A stretch of DNA of 64,000 nt from Blastococcus aurantiacus. GTDB taxonomy: Bacteria; Actinomycetota; Actinomycetes; Mycobacteriales; Geodermatophilaceae. Of the stretch, positions 1,562-61,179 are shown piece after piece; position 1 is the first letter of the stretch; the number at the start of each line of letters is the position of its first letter. The DNA lies in NCBI RefSeq assembly GCF_900102425.1, contig NZ_FNBT01000012.1, positions 1 through 64,000 on the forward strand. Direction: 5' to 3'. Below the pieces are notes generated by a model. It worked only from the letters and a program-made list of their open reading frames with translations, was not told the DNA's origin and searched no databases. The translations under genes were made by a program, and so were the position numbers.

Positions 1562-4240
1562 GTGCGATTCCTCCGGGCGACAGAGCAGGGCAGGCGGCGC
1601 GGTGCGCCCCTGTGGCGGTACCTCACGGCCCTGGTGCTGCTCCCGCTGATCGGTGTGGCCGTCCTCGCCACCGCCGCCGCGCAGGCTCGCGCGGACGAGG
1701 CGGCCGGTGCCGAGCGTGCCGAGTCCGCCGTGCGCACGCTCGCCCTGCTCGACGTCGCCCGCCGGGCGACCGAGCAGGAGATCATCCCGGTGCTCACGCT
1801 CCACGCGGTACAGGCGCCGGAGGTCCTGGCGGCCATCGGCATCCCGCAGGAGGTGCTCGACGCACAGCGCGCGTCGGCGTCCGAGCAGGCGGCGGCCATC
1901 CGTCGGGTGACCGACGGGGCCCTGACCCAGGTCCGGGCCGGATCCCTCGGGGCCGAGGCGGCGCAGCGGGCGGAGACCGCCCTCGCCGTCCTGCGGAACC
2001 CGAACTCCTCCGTGGGGCTCGACGTCGAGAAGATCTACTACAGCTTCCTCGCGGTCTCGAACGACCTGCTGACCGCGCAGGAGGCGGTGGCTGCGGCCGC
2101 CACCTCCGAGGGCGTGCCGGCGGCGACCATGCGCGCGATCCAGGACGTCCAGACCGCCGCCCACCTGACCCACATCGCCAGCCGGCAGGCGCCGCTGTTC
2201 CTGGGCTCCCTCCTCGTGCCCAGCGACGGGAGCCTCATCGGCGCGCGGGGGGCGTGGCAGACCGCCTGGCTGGACTACACCGACGCCCGGCTCCAGATGC
2301 AGGACCTCTCGCAGGAGTCCCTCCGGGACCAGTGGGCCGCGATCGAGGACCTGCCGGCCGTCCGGGAGCTCGACGCACTCTTCACCGCCGGCTTCGCCGG
2401 CAGCGGGGGAGCCCCGACCGCCGCGACCCTCGCGGACGTCATGACGGTGCTCGCGGGCACCCAGGAGCGGGGCGCAGCCCTGGCCGACCTCGTGGACACC
2501 GCGGTCGAGAGGACCCGCCAGCTCGTCGCGCAGGACCTGGAACGCGCCAACGGAGCGCTGCACGGAATCATGGTGGTCGGCGCCGGGCTGCTCACCGGTT
2601 CCCTCGTCGGCGCGGCCTTCCTCGGCCGCAGCGTCGCCCGCGCGCTCCGCCTCCTGGCCGGTCAGGCCACCCAGATCAGCGAGGGCTCCCTGGTGGAGGT
2701 CGAGGTCGCCGGGCCGCGCGAGGTCCGCACCGTGTCCGCCGCCCTCCGCGCCGCCGTCGCCGGGTTGCGCCGCATCCAGGACCAGGCCCAGGCCGTCGCC
2801 CGCGGCGACCTGGACGACGCCCTGCTCGACCAGCCCCTGCCCGGCCCGCTCGGCGAGGTGGTGCACGCCTCGGTCCGGCAGATCGTGCACTCGGTCCGCC
2901 AGCGCGAGGAGCTGCAGTTCGCCCTGGCCCACCAGGCCACGCACGACGCGCTCACGGAACTGCCCAACCGCGCCCAGGCCGTCACGCTCGTGACCGCCGC
3001 CCTGCACCGCGGCCGGCGCTCCGGCGACATGACCGGCCTGCTCTTCGTCGACCTCGACGGCTTCAAGGCCGTCAACGACGGGCACGGGCACGCCGCCGGC
3101 GACGAGGTGCTCCGCGAGGTGGCCCGGCGGCTCTCCGCCGCCGTCCGGCCCGGGGACGCCGTCTGCCGGCTCGGCGGCGACGAGTTCGTCGTCCTCGTGG
3201 AGCAGGTGCACAAGGAGCACGACCTGCTCGAGCTGGCCCACCGCCTCATCGCCTCCGTCAGCGAGCCGATCACGGCTGCCCGCGCCCGTGTCCGCATCGG
3301 CGCCAGCATCGGGGTGGCCGTCAGCCGGGACGGCGGCACCGACGCCGACGCCCTGTTCGCCGAGGCCGACACCGCCGCCTACCGCGCCAAGGCGCACGGC
3401 CGCGGCCGCGCCGAGATGTTCGACGAGACCCTGCGTCTGCAGCTCAACCAGCGCGCCGAGCTGGAGGCGGCGATCGCCTCGGGCTTGGCCGGCGGCGAGA
3501 TGCAGGTGGCCTACCAGCCGGTCATCGACGTCGCCACCGACCGTCTGATGGGCTACGAGGCGCTCATCCGCTGGGACCGGCCGGGCGTCGGCCTGGTCCC
3601 GCCGGACCAGTTCATCCCCGTCGCCGAGAGCTCCCGCCTGATCGGCGACGTCGACCGCTGGATGCTGCACGAGGCCACCCGCCAGCTGGCGCAGTGGCGG
3701 GCCGAGTGCCCGGCCGCGCCGGGACAGCCGGACCCGACGATCGCGGTGAACATCTCCGGGCGGCACCTGGCCGATCCGCGGGTGATCACCGACGTCGCCG
3801 ACGCGCTCACGGCCTCCGGGCTGCCCGCGCGGCTGCTCGTGCTCGAGGTCACCGAGACGGTGCTGGTCGACGACCCGCTCGCCTACGAGCACCTCACCGA
3901 CCTGCGTGCCATGGGCGTGAGCATCGCCATCGACGACTTCGGCACCGGCTACACCTCGATCGGCCAGCTGCGGAACATGCCCGTGGACACGCTCAAGATC
4001 GACCGGAGCTTCGTGGCGTCCACCGAGCCCGCGCACCGCGAGCTCGTGGCGCTCATGATCCGCGCGGCGCACACCTTCGGTCTGACCGTCGTCGCCGAGG
4101 GCGTGGAGGAGCCCGCGCAGCTGGCCCGGCTGAGGGCCCAGGAGTGCGACCAGGCCCAGGGCTACCTGCTCTATCGCCCGATGCCCGCTCCCGAGGCCGG
4201 CGCGCTGCTGCGCCGGGCGGAGTCCGCCGGCACCGTCTGA
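1562..4240 (+). CDS. Membrane GGDEF-EAL c-di-GMP turnover protein
   Basis: This is a predicted bifunctional diguanylate cyclase/phosphodiesterase. From the GTG at 1562 it has 892 residues. An N-terminal transmembrane helix (about residues 18-40) precedes a helical sensor region of about 300 residues. A second transmembrane helix and a HAMP-like linker precede the GGDEF domain. The active-site GGDEF is intact at about residue 538. An RxxD (RPGD) lies exactly five residues upstream, which is the canonical inhibitory I-site. The EAL domain keeps EAL at about residue 666, the DDFGTGYTS stretch and the late AEGVE motif, so it looks catalytically competent. An upstream GTG at 1385 is possible but would add unlikely sequence. 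The ligand of the sensor region is unknown. Confidence 0.93.
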   Translation: MRFLRATEQGRRRGAPLWRYLTALVLLPLIGVAVLATAAAQARADEAAGAERAESAVRTLALLDVARRATEQEIIPVLTLHAVQAPEVLAAIGIPQEVLDAQRASASEQAAAIRRVTDGALTQVRAGSLGAEAAQRAETALAVLRNPNSSVGLDVEKIYYSFLAVSNDLLTAQEAVAAAATSEGVPAATMRAIQDVQTAAHLTHIASRQAPLFLGSLLVPSDGSLIGARGAWQTAWLDYTDARLQMQDLSQESLRDQWAAIEDLPAVRELDALFTAGFAGSGGAPTAATLADVMTVLAGTQERGAALADLVDTAVERTRQLVAQDLERANGALHGIMVVGAGLLTGSLVGAAFLGRSVARALRLLAGQATQISEGSLVEVEVAGPREVRTVSAALRAAVAGLRRIQDQAQAVARGDLDDALLDQPLPGPLGEVVHASVRQIVHSVRQREELQFALAHQATHDALTELPNRAQAVTLVTAALHRGRRSGDMTGLLFVDLDGFKAVNDGHGHAAGDEVLREVARRLSAAVRPGDAVCRLGGDEFVVLVEQVHKEHDLLELAHRLIASVSEPITAARARVRIGASIGVAVSRDGGTDADALFAEADTAAYRAKAHGRGRAEMFDETLRLQLNQRAELEAAIASGLAGGEMQVAYQPVIDVATDRLMGYEALIRWDRPGVGLVPPDQFIPVAESSRLIGDVDRWMLHEATRQLAQWRAECPAAPGQPDPTIAVNISGRHLADPRVITDVADALTASGLPARLLVLEVTETVLVDDPLAYEHLTDLRAMGVSIAIDDFGTGYTSIGQLRNMPVDTLKIDRSFVASTEPAHRELVALMIRAAHTFGLTVVAEGVEEPAQLARLRAQECDQAQGYLLYRPMPAPEAGALLRRAESAGTV

Positions 4241-57985: not shown

Positions 57986-58489
57986 ATGGGGCACGACCAC
58001 GATCCGGGGCACGCCGGCGGGCACGTCGCGGTCGGGACGGCCGGCGACGGGAGCGCACCGCTGGCCGAGCGGCTGCGGGCCCGCGGTCTGCGGCTGACCG
58101 CCCAGCGGCGCCGGGTGCTGGCGGCCGTGGAGGCCCTGGAGCACGCCACCCCGGAGACGATCGGCGCCCGGTTGCGCGAGGAGGCCGGAGCGGAGGGCTC
58201 GGCTCCCGACGCCTCGACCGTCTACCGCAACCTGGAGCTGCTCGAGCGGCTGGGCCTGGTGTGGCACACCCACCTGGGCAAGGGGGCGCCGGTCTACCAC
58301 GCCTCCGAGCACCCCCACGTGCACGTCGTGTGCGCCTCCTGCGGGGAGATCTCCTCGGTCGCTCCGGATCTCCTGGACAGCGCCGCGGAACGTCTGGCCG
58401 CCGATCTGGGTTTCACCGTGGACGTGGGACACGTCGCCCTGTCCGGGACGTGCCGCGCGTGCCGCGAACGAGCATCGGAGACCCCATGA
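57986..58489 (+). CDS. Fur-family metalloregulator
   Basis: The 167-residue regulator has a winged-helix domain (LRARGLRLTAQRRRVLAAVE, DASTVYRNLELLERLGLV) and a metal domain with HPHVHVVCASCG and a second CRAC pair, the structural zinc site of Fur/Zur proteins. The N-terminus is His-rich (MGHDHDPGHAGGH). Whether it senses iron, zinc or another metal is not decided. It overlaps the start of ygfZ by four bases. Confidence 0.9.
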   Translation: MGHDHDPGHAGGHVAVGTAGDGSAPLAERLRARGLRLTAQRRRVLAAVEALEHATPETIGARLREEAGAEGSAPDASTVYRNLELLERLGLVWHTHLGKGAPVYHASEHPHVHVVCASCGEISSVAPDLLDSAAERLAADLGFTVDVGHVALSGTCRACRERASETP

Positions 58490-59607
58490 GTTCCACCCTG
58501 CTGTCCCGCCCGGGCGCCGTCGCCGTCGAGGACCCGGCGGACGCCGCCTTCGCGGTGGCCGCCCACTACGGGGACCCGCTGCGGGAGCAGCGGCTGCTCG
58601 CCGAGGGTGCGGGGCTGGTGGACCGCAGCGACCGCGACGTGCTCGCCGTCCCGGGTGCCGACCGGCTCTCCTGGCTGCACAGCCTCACCAGCCAGCACCT
58701 CGACCGGCTGGGTGACGCGACCGGCAGCGAGGCGCTGGTCCTCTCCCCGCAGGGGCACGTGGAGCACCACCTGGTGATCACCGAGCTGGGAGGGACGACC
58801 TGGGCCGACGTCGAGCCCGGCACGGGTGCCGCGCTGCACGCCTTCCTCGAGAAGATGCGCTTCATGCTCCGGGTCGAGCCGCAGCTCCTGACCGCGCAGT
58901 GGGCGGTGCTCTCCCTCGTCGGGCCGCGGGCGCTCGACGTGCTCGCCGCGGCCGGACTGCCCGCCCCCGCCGCGGAGTACGCGGTCGAAGCGCTGCCCGA
59001 CGGCGGGTTCGTGCGTCGCATGCGGCCGATCGGCGACGGCACGGCCCTCGTCGTCGACCTGGTCGTGCCGCGCGGCTCCGTCGGCGTCGTCGCCGACCGG
59101 CTGCTCGCCGCCGGCGCGGGACTCGCAGGGGTGCAGGCCTACGAGGCGCTGCGCGTCGAGGCCCGCCGTCCCCGGCTGGGCCGGGACAGCGACCATCGCA
59201 CCATCCCCAACGAGCTCGAGTGGCTGACCAGCGCCGTGCACCTGGACAAGGGCTGCTACCGCGGGCAGGAGACGGTCGCCCGCGTGCACAACCTGGGCCG
59301 GCCGCCGCGCCGGCTGGTGCTCCTGCACCTGGACGGCGTCAGCGAGGACCTCACCGAGCCGGGTGCCCCCGTGCTGGCGGGCGCCCGCGAGGTCGGCCGG
59401 GTCGGGACGGTCGTCCGGCACCACGAACTGGGCGTCATCGCGCTGGCCCTGGTCAAGCAGTCGGTGACCCAGGACGCCGCGCTGACCGTGGGTGGCTCGA
59501 CCGCCGCCATCGACCCCGACGACGCGGTCGCGGAGGTCGACGACACCCGGGCGGCGGCGCGGGACCGGATCCGGGCGGTCCGGTCTGCGACGATGCCCCG
59601 GGCGTGA
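58486..59607 (+). CDS. ygfZ: Folate-binding protein YgfZ
   Basis: This 373-residue protein of the GcvT-like YgfZ family has the diagnostic KGCYRGQET. YgfZ uses folate to help assemble or repair certain Fe-S enzymes. The ATG overlaps the fur stop, so a metalloregulator and an Fe-S maintenance factor are translationally coupled, which points to iron for that regulator. Confidence 0.93.
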   Translation: MSSTLLSRPGAVAVEDPADAAFAVAAHYGDPLREQRLLAEGAGLVDRSDRDVLAVPGADRLSWLHSLTSQHLDRLGDATGSEALVLSPQGHVEHHLVITELGGTTWADVEPGTGAALHAFLEKMRFMLRVEPQLLTAQWAVLSLVGPRALDVLAAAGLPAPAAEYAVEALPDGGFVRRMRPIGDGTALVVDLVVPRGSVGVVADRLLAAGAGLAGVQAYEALRVEARRPRLGRDSDHRTIPNELEWLTSAVHLDKGCYRGQETVARVHNLGRPPRRLVLLHLDGVSEDLTEPGAPVLAGAREVGRVGTVVRHHELGVIALALVKQSVTQDAALTVGGSTAAIDPDDAVAEVDDTRAAARDRIRAVRSATMPRA

Positions 59608-59650: not shown

Positions 59651-60208
59651 GTGAGTGCCAAGACGAGTCCCGCCGGCGGCGCCGCCGTCGACGCGCTGCT
59701 GGAGCCGGCGTTCCTCGAGGACGCCACCCGCCGCTCCATGGCCGAGGTGCGCACCCTGCGCCGCCAGGCCGAGCAGGAGGAGGTCAACCTCTCCTACACC
59801 CGGCGGCTGCTGCAGGGACGGCTGGACATCGTGCGCCGCGAGCTGCAGCGCCGCGCCGAGCACGACGGCCGGTCGCTGGTCGAGCTCCTCCCGGAGATTT
59901 TGGCCGAGAAGGGCCGCGGGCCGGCCCATGGCCTGGGCCGGCACCAGACGGTGCAGCCGGCCAACCCCGACGCCTACGAGTCGTGGGTCAACGCGCTGAC
60001 GCCGGGGGTCGACCTCTCCTCGATCACCGAGCTGAGCGACGCCAAGCTGGAACAGGGCGCGCGTGCGCTCGCCGAGGCCGAGGTCGGGCTGTCCGAGCGG
60101 CGCCGCGGCGTGCAGCAGGTCATGGACGCCCTCGCCGGCGAGCTCGGTCGCCGGTACCGCGACGGCGAGGCCGACGTCGCCGCGCTACTGGCCGACGAAG
60201 GGCGATGA
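59651..60208 (+). CDS. rsiG: RsiG-type c-di-GMP-binding anti-sigma factor
   Basis: This 185-residue helical protein contains two exact copies of the RsiG c-di-GMP motif E(X)3S(X)2R(X)3Q(X)3D. The first is E44-S48-R51-Q55-D59, the second E144-S148-R151-Q155-D159. In Streptomyces, RsiG loaded with c-di-GMP holds the sporulation sigma factor WhiG; two copies fit the intramolecular dimer form. WhiG/FliA is not in this window. GTG at 59651 follows GGAGGACGCACC. It overlaps the asparaginase gene by four bases. Confidence 0.88.
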   Translation: MSAKTSPAGGAAVDALLEPAFLEDATRRSMAEVRTLRRQAEQEEVNLSYTRRLLQGRLDIVRRELQRRAEHDGRSLVELLPEILAEKGRGPAHGLGRHQTVQPANPDAYESWVNALTPGVDLSSITELSDAKLEQGARALAEAEVGLSERRRGVQQVMDALAGELGRRYRDGEADVAALLADEGR

Positions 60209-61179
60209 GCACCTCACCCTGGCCGGAGAACCCCGTCCTGGTCGAGGTCGAGCGGTCCGGGTTCCTCGAGTCGGTGCACCGCGGCTCGCTCGTGGTGCTG
60301 GGCGCCGACGGCGAGGTGCTGCTGGCCGCAGGAGCGGTCGACCGGCCGATGCTCCCGCGCTCGTCGAACAAGCCGGTCCAGGCCACCGCGCTGCTCGCGG
60401 CCGGCTGGGTGGCCGGCTCGGCCGCCGAGCTGGCCATCGCCGCCGGCTCGCACAGCGCTGAGGACGCCCACCGCGAGCGCGCCGCGGCGATCCTCGGCGC
60501 GGCCGGCCTGACGGCTGAGCACCTGGGCTGCCCGCCGGCGCTGCCGCTGCACGAGGCGACCCGGGCGGCCTGGCTGGTCGAGGGCCGGGCGCCGGACCGG
60601 CTGGCCATGAACTGCTCGGGCAAGCACGCGGCGATGCTCGCCGCCTGCGTGGCGGCCGGCTGGCCGGTCGAGGGGTACCTCCACCGCGACCACCCGCTGC
60701 AGCGGGCCATCGAGGAGCGGCTGGGCCAGGCGGCCGGCGAGCCGGTGTCCGCCGTCGTCGTCGACGGGTGCGGCGCCCCGCAGCACGCGCTCTCGCCGAC
60801 CGGGCTGGCCCGCGGCGTCCTCTCCCTCGTCCAGGCCGAGCCGGGCTCGCCCGGGCGGGCGGTGGCCGACGCCATGCGGGCCGAGCCGTGGTTCGTCGCC
60901 GGCACCGGCCGCGAGGACACCGCCCTGATGCAGGCCGTCCCCGGCCTGCTGGTCAAGGGCGGTGCCGACGGCGTGCACGTGGCCGCCGTCCCCGGTGGGG
61001 GCGCGGTGGCGCTCAAGCTCGACGACGGTGGTGACCGCGGCCGGATGCCCGCGCTCGCCGCGGGTCTGCGTCGGCTCGGGGTGCCCGCAGAGCAGCTCGC
61101 CCCGTGGTTGCAGCTCCCGGTCGCCGGGGGCGGAGGAGTCGTGGGGGCGGTCCGCCCGTCGGCCGCGCTCGCTTCCTGA
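60205..61179 (+). CDS. L-asparaginase II family protein
   Basis: This 324-residue enzyme of the asparaginase II (PF06089) family has SSNKPVQATALL near the start and MNCSGKHAAML in the centre, both conserved. It should hydrolyse asparagine to aspartate. It lacks a signal peptide. It is translationally coupled to rsiG (ATGA overlap); why an asparaginase follows an anti-sigma gene is not clear. Confidence 0.9.
   Translation: MSTSPWPENPVLVEVERSGFLESVHRGSLVVLGADGEVLLAAGAVDRPMLPRSSNKPVQATALLAAGWVAGSAAELAIAAGSHSAEDAHRERAAAILGAAGLTAEHLGCPPALPLHEATRAAWLVEGRAPDRLAMNCSGKHAAMLAACVAAGWPVEGYLHRDHPLQRAIEERLGQAAGEPVSAVVVDGCGAPQHALSPTGLARGVLSLVQAEPGSPGRAVADAMRAEPWFVAGTGREDTALMQAVPGLLVKGGADGVHVAAVPGGGAVALKLDDGGDRGRMPALAAGLRRLGVPAEQLAPWLQLPVAGGGGVVGAVRPSAALAS

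Follow-up and report, generated by a model that had tools for sequence, protein, structure and literature searches.

Genome comparison suggests that an RsiG switch governs flagella instead of spore formation in Blastococcus aurantiacus

In Blastococcus aurantiacus, genome comparison suggests that the RsiG switch governs flagella instead of spore formation. The window, a stretch of 64,000 nucleotides (contig NZ_FNBT01000012.1), carries rsiG and was analysed together with the genome assembly (4.16 Mb, 18 contigs, 97 % complete). The best explanation as a whole, and one that is held to be moderately probable, is a two-step flagellar cascade of RsiG, WhiG and a FliA-like sigma factor. At high c-di-GMP, the two helices of RsiG would bind a c-di-GMP dimer and keep WhiG inactive. 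When c-di-GMP falls, WhiG would be freed and would act at the TCA-N16-TGCCGATRA promoters of the basal-body operon and of fliA, and the FliA-like sigma factor, with its changed region 2.4, would in turn act at the flagellin promoter TCAAG-N15-GCCGTA(A/G). RsiG would take the place of FlgM as the gate and stand at the head of the cascade. We infer that RsiG binds c-di-GMP and WhiG in this organism, and also the direction of control, in which high c-di-GMP corresponds to the non-motile state.

By its sequence, the 185-residue product of rsiG is RsiG, and since RsiG has already been reported in 16 of 16 Geodermatophilaceae, in a paper whose available text also gives the motif, the structures and the pilus targets in Rubrobacter (PMC8325347), the protein is an ordinary member of its family. 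The Pfam family RsiG (PF22802) is matched at 94.5 bits (cut-off 27), in two stretches of the same reading frame, and the RsiG of S. venezuelae in 6pfj aligns with residues 9-181 (E 1.2e-22). Both copies of the c-di-GMP motif are exact, E-X3-S-X2-R-X3-Q-X3-D, at the residues given in the original prediction, which is confirmed on the identity of the protein as well; twin-motif RsiGs are defined by a pair of E(X)3S(X)2R(X)3[Q/H](X)3D motifs, one per helix, and this is what the product contains. All ten motif residues are intact in 74 of 75 RsiG sequences (that of the window and those from 74 loci in named genomes), the single exception being L317, with C in place of S148. Because of the PF22802 score, the 6pfj match and the conservation in relatives, the motif pair is not a chance occurrence.

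The AlphaFold model (mean pLDDT 84, pTM 0.79) has the motifs on two long helices, and a fold search of the PDB with it returned, at E <= 0.001, only 6pfv_T, 6pfv_E and 6pfj_T, all of them RsiG. The overall fit to the solved RsiG, an antiparallel coiled coil, is moderate (TM 0.57 by query and 0.63-0.69 by target, rmsd 5.9). A genome-wide search for RsiG gave two matches, both of them stretches of the rsiG reading frame, and so no other RsiG. The Pfam scan of the protein, taken to E 10, contained RsiG and three weak other families, with FlgM absent. The nearest RsiGs listed, from which the very nearest records may be left out, are those of Blastococcus sp. DSM 44205, Blastococcus sp. TML/M2B and B. 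aggregatus (95-96 % identity).

Table 1. Features of the rsiG region and of the proposed cascade. Plain positions are those of the window; the others carry the handle of a contig (C) of the genome (G000) or of a locus (L).
Feature	Position	Strand	Basis or remark
rsiG, twin-motif c-di-GMP-dependent anti-sigma factor (predicted)	59651..60208	+	Pfam, PDB sequence match, motifs, fold; GTG 59651, TGA 60208
c-di-GMP motif 1, E44-S48-R51-Q55-D59 (EVNLSYTRRLLQGRLD)	59780..59827	+	within helix 30-72
c-di-GMP motif 2, E144-S148-R151-Q155-D159 (EVGLSERRRGVQQVMD)	60080..60127	+	within helix 130-170
Fur-family regulator	57986..58489	+	conserved neighbour, 71/74 loci; neighbourhood comparison, Pfam
YgfZ/CAF17-like folate-binding protein	58486..59607	+	conserved neighbour, 72/74 loci; ATG at 58486, Pfam scan begun one codon inside it
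Asparaginase II family protein	60205..61179	+	conserved neighbour, 73/74 loci; 4-base overlap with the rsiG stop here
GGDEF-EAL enzyme with RxxD I-site	1562..4240	+	Pfam EAL 235 bits, GGDEF 153 bits; frame open from 1385
WhiG (L005)	G000:C12:41069-41866	-	best PDB matches are S. venezuelae WhiG chains
FliA-like sigma factor (L006)	G000:C13:415110-416090 (L006:1066-2043)	+ in L006	inside the flagellar cluster
Promoter-like site, TCA-N16-TGCCGATRA	C13:415079		before fliA
Promoter-like site, TCA-N16-TGCCGATRA	C13:422946		before the basal-body operon (flgB-like...fliF-fliG...)
Promoter-like site, TCAAG-N15-GCCGTA(A/G)	C13:419375		before flagellin
Exact TCA-N16-TGCCGATRA site	C18:238452	-	seven bases before the gene of a 300-residue membrane-like protein

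A search of the genome with sigma region 3 led to six places, two of which are relatives of sigma-28. One is WhiG, whose best PDB matches are the WhiG chains of 6pfj and 6pfv (E 1.4e-91 and 1.7e-91). The other is a FliA-like sigma factor related to WhiG (E 2e-28), the gene of which sits between flgN and the flagellin gene. By sequence, the remaining four places look like three sigma factors of the SigA/HrdB type and one of the SigF/SigB type. The original prediction depended on a WhiG/FliA-type sigma factor being encoded in the genome; since WhiG is there, and the second sigma-28 relative besides, it stands on this point.

According to the available text of PMC8325347, residues K57, G61 and R62 of WhiG contact c-di-GMP in the solved RsiG-WhiG complex, and the published numbering agrees with the alignment used here. 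All three are retained in 30 of 30 WhiG relatives, and the cognate WhiG with the contacting K, G and R is encoded in the same genome as RsiG; the RsiG-WhiG pairing is nearly certain. The FliA-like sigma factor reads VN(A/T)VA(A/S)R at the same stretch in 34 of 34 sequences, some genomes being counted through two loci, and therefore neither register gives a counterpart to K57 or G61; at the position of R62, the HMMER register has A and an alignment by eye has R. Were RsiG to sequester the FliA-like flagellar sigma factor directly, the relatedness of the two sigma factors and the arginine alignable to R62 would be accounted for, but the lysine and glycine that WhiG keeps in every relative would have no counterpart, and this arrangement is very improbable. 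Because the FliA-like protein is without the contact lysine and glycine, the target of RsiG is most likely WhiG, through which RsiG would reach flagellin only indirectly. The earlier suggestion that the switch may act on flagella, not sporulation, agrees with the flagellar and chemotaxis genes found in the genome and with Blastococcus RsiGs being the closest, and it has to be amended in that control of flagellin is likely indirect, via WhiG. For the budding that was suggested alongside flagella, the analysis turned up no evidence either way.

Two classes of promoter-like site are found at the flagellar genes. Before flagellin, the recurrent sequence is TCAAG-N15-GCCGTA, often preceded by TTCGCC and followed 47-65 bases on by a sequence that resembles a ribosome site; before fliA and before the basal-body operon, it is TCA-N16-TGCCGA. 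Both were counted by one rule at nine spacers (13-21), with dinucleotide shuffles as the control (N17 means 0.1-2.0), and the fliS-to-flgB regions counted were about 2-3 kb each; the loci without usable upstream sequence, namely L100 and L115 for flagellin (2/31) and L363 for rsiG (1/74), were left out. TMA-N17-GCCGA was present before fliA in 14 of 21 regions (shuffle mean 0.6) and missing from the other 7/21, present in 18 of 19 fliS-to-flgB regions (shuffle mean 2.0) and before flagellin in 1 of 29. TMA-N17-GCCGT preceded flagellin in 26 of 29 cases (shuffle mean 0.1), with 0/21 before fliA and 0/19 in the fliS-to-flgB region. At the other eight spacers (13-16 and 18-21), the three sets gave 0-4 matches for GCCGA and 0-5 for GCCGT. 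The GCCGA and GCCGT classes have the same spacing and separate by gene.

Upstream of whiG, neither TMA-N17-GCCGA nor TMA-N17-GCCGT was found (0/30 each), and upstream of rsiG the counts at N17 were 0/73 for GCCGA and 3/73 for GCCGT. GCCGA at N20 reached 9/73 upstream of rsiG against a shuffle mean of 0.7; because these nine matches share one TCAAGC(A/G)GTC stretch in the end of ygfZ, 148-181 bases before rsiG, a coding stretch common to several loci can by itself outnumber the shuffled control. Support for the flagellar sites comes from the promoter class following the gene and from the recurrence of the sites elsewhere in the genomes.

In region 2.4, the sequence is RIRGA in 30 of 30 WhiG relatives and RLQGA in all 20 FliA-like sequences that cover the region, and the FliA chain of 6pmi, like WhiG, has RIRGA. 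The occurrence of RLQGA alongside a GCCGT rather than a GCCGA promoter of flagellin may reflect a natural shift in the specificity of sigma-28. The FliA of E. coli reads GCCGATAA, and that of Actinoplanes reportedly reads CTCA(N15-17)GCCGAA, a sequence that would be similar to the GCCGA class; one FliA-type sigma factor could read both classes. Because WhiG has RIRGA as in the FliA of 6pmi, sigma factors of the WhiG type are published as reading GCCGATAA (PMC8325347, available text) and the FliA-like protein has RLQGA, the GCCGA class is assigned to WhiG, which would read it, and the GCCGT class to the FliA-like sigma factor. This assignment of sigma factor to promoter is the weak step of the model, and the published WhiG consensus misses these sites.

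A different division of labour would have RsiG gate WhiG by c-di-GMP, the FliA-like sigma factor read all flagellar promoters, and WhiG control surface, differentiation or c-di-GMP enzymes. It is the FliA-like gene that lies inside the flagellar cluster, the flagellar genes of this genome are without a match to the published WhiG consensus, and in other bacteria one sigma-28 reads the flagellar sites. However, the -10 sequences fall into two classes split by gene, region 2.4 differs constantly between the two sigma factors, and the GCCGA class is nearer to the published WhiG target GCCGATAA, so that this division is possible but doubtful.

The published WhiG consensus, TAAA-N15-GCCGATAA (PMC8325347, available text), has no exact match in this genome, and with up to two mismatches it has 24 genome matches, of which none lies in the flagellar cluster; the sole match with a single mismatch is at C10:182306. 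The flagellar GCCGA sites differ from it in having TCA and a spacer one base longer. The search for promoters of the sigma factor, as originally proposed, gave no exact match to the published consensus and located the TCA-N16-TGCCGATRA class, which WhiG may read, at fliA and the basal-body operon. As a list of regulon members the published-consensus search was dropped, 11 of the 24 matches being copies of an interspersed palindromic repeat. This repeat, TTTTCCGCGGTAAAGCG-N-CGCTTTACCGCGGAAAA with variants, occurs among other places at C17:237448, C18:128995, C9:482375, C11:212547, C13:322819 and C16:24187, and not in the window; to judge by eye, some copies come after a stop codon, and the repeat may be a terminator or an element of the REP type. 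A CAAGT-based search (19 matches against 36 in the reversed control) and a TCAAG-N15-GCCGW search (47 against 34) were not used as counts.

Three sites in this genome match TCA-N16-TGCCGATRA exactly, one before fliA, another before the basal-body operon and the third at C18:238452. Some Geodermatophilaceae change cell form, and the RsiG-WhiG pair is the same as in Streptomyces, from which a Streptomyces-like switch serving cell differentiation or sporulation could be argued; with two of the three exact matches at flagellar genes, such a role is very improbable. WhiI, a WhiG target in sporulation, also speaks against it, since simple motile actinobacteria that have WhiG are reported to lack it (PMC4255298, available text). 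Among 20 genomes searched, five with matches listed hold 15 exact sites, and with a spacer one base longer there are two exact sites in the 20 genomes and none in those five. Three more of the 15 lie, by position and sequence, in flagellar regions (G035, G028 and G039), one precedes cheB in G028, and others precede a membrane-GAF-GGDEF gene in G061 and G035 (proteins 74 % identical), a family-2 glycosyltransferase (G061), a 107-residue reading frame (G035) and a lipoprotein-like protein (G039).

With at most one mismatch, TCA-N16-TGCCGATRA gives 28 matches in this genome (3 exact and 25 with one mismatch). The reversed pattern gives 3, but it makes a poor control, since reversal does not preserve codon bias; most one-mismatch matches look like chance in coding sequence. 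Fifteen of the 25 were inspected, and those before motility or signalling genes, which are cheA, cheB and a GAF-histidine kinase-receiver gene, are named here; the other inspected sites stand before a GH26-type protein (L280), before doubtful frames or before no gene. A site at a methyl-accepting-protein gene (L291) was dropped, as the start found is internal.

Exact TCA-N16-TGCCGATGA sites of note also stand before two other kinds of gene. The 300-residue protein behind C18:238452 (L279:743-1645, - strand, G000:C18) is membrane-like by eye and has no Pfam family, and a relative in G035 (L299:698-1558, - strand, 58 % identical) has an exact site at the same distance; the protein is a candidate for a new motility or c-di-GMP component. 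In G035 and G039, the site lies 33-34 bases upstream of ECF-type sigma genes (L302:1107-1664, +, and L304:1013-1570, -), which suggests that an ECF-type sigma factor may form a further tier of the cascade.

The neighbours of rsiG are well conserved (Table 1), and an HTH gene stands beside it in 72 of 74 loci. The median distance from the rsiG stop to the asparaginase start is -1 base, and as the starts are close or overlapping, the two genes may be on one transcript. A functional tie of RsiG to asparaginase could point to this distance, to the presence of the neighbour in 73 of 74 loci and to a start with a 4-base overlap in 22 of the 59 judgeable loci (of 74, 14 were not judgeable and one, L319, is without an asparaginase match). 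The overlapping start is missing, however, in the other 37 of 59, L319 has rsiG but no match to asparaginase, and the Fur, YgfZ and HTH neighbours are conserved about equally, which makes such a tie extremely improbable. ATGA is found at the junction in 11 of 74 loci, fewer than have 4-base overlapping starts of any kind. L319 comes from the Blastococcus MAG RYN_119, where the HTH gene comes immediately after rsiG. The coupling to asparaginase that had been remarked on earlier is thus real as a conserved adjacency, is without any sign of a functional link, and would be best read, from gene order, as old synteny.

The GGDEF-EAL enzyme of the same window has the RLGGDEF and EAL motifs, and its RxxD I-site is separated from GGDEF by five residues, in agreement with the active site and I-site originally described. 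It may supply or remove the c-di-GMP to which the RsiG switch would respond.

Cells of the source organism probably swim, to judge from their genes and from their relatives. In a survey of the family, 76 genomes were searched for RsiG, flagellin, WhiG and the FliA-like sigma factor. RsiG was present in 68 and flagellin in 67, every one of these with RsiG; WhiG of at least 82 % identity was found in 65 and the FliA-like sigma factor in 66, with G045 having flagellin and no FliA-like sigma factor among the matches listed. RsiG and flagellin are jointly missing in eight genomes of three genera (g6, g9 and g11), all of them fragmented assemblies of 190-550 contigs, so that the joint absence reflects few events or partly missing data and is weak evidence for a link. 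The RsiG-positive genomes without a close WhiG match, G033, G054 and G072, are all at most 81 % complete. In G033 (genus g9, 74 % complete), RsiG was matched in one stretch (profile 3-50), a WhiG-like protein of 52 % identity was found and flagellin was not.

The 2021 paper on RsiG evolution studied target promoters in two Rubrobacter species (PMC8325347, available text), and a study of flagella across the actinobacterial phylum, which cites that paper and gives counts of c-di-GMP enzymes, names no link of RsiG to flagella in its available text (PMC10746217). RsiG targets or flagellar wiring in Geodermatophilaceae were not found in print among open-licence papers. With two promoter classes and two sigma factors, the output of RsiG in this family becomes a directly testable question. 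For motile actinobacteria without FlgM in general, chances are about even that RsiG gates flagellar transcription, with WhiG above a re-specialised sigma-28 (RLQGA, GCCGTA promoters). If true, flagella would be a third output of RsiG, beside sporulation and pili, and motility could be proposed as its ancestral output, sporulation being a later use.

Among known systems, RsiG-(c-di-GMP)2-WhiG of S. venezuelae (6pfj, 6pfv) shares the twin-motif RsiG with the same motifs (39-40 % identical by the fold search) and a WhiG with K57, G61 and R62. Streptomyces, however, is non-motile and its switch blocks sporulation, whereas the likely output here is flagella, with a second sigma-28 proposed below WhiG. 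A GGDEF-EAL antagonist of RsiG, RmdB, is known in S. venezuelae (PMC13232838, available text), and the window too carries a GGDEF-EAL enzyme. In Rubrobacter radiotolerans, the (RsiG)2-(c-di-GMP)2-WhiG complex (7lq2-7lq4) is likewise a c-di-GMP-armed anti-WhiG in a unicellular host, with dgc/pde genes among the predicted targets, but its RsiG is a single-motif homodimer, in contrast to the twin-motif protein here, and its output is type IV pili. In the FlgM-FliA system of E. coli and the FlgM-SigD system of B. subtilis, an anti-sigma factor similarly restrains sigma-28 in flagellar control; unlike these, RsiG has no FlgM match, and its gate, as proposed here, would be c-di-GMP instead of export and would lie at the top of the cascade.
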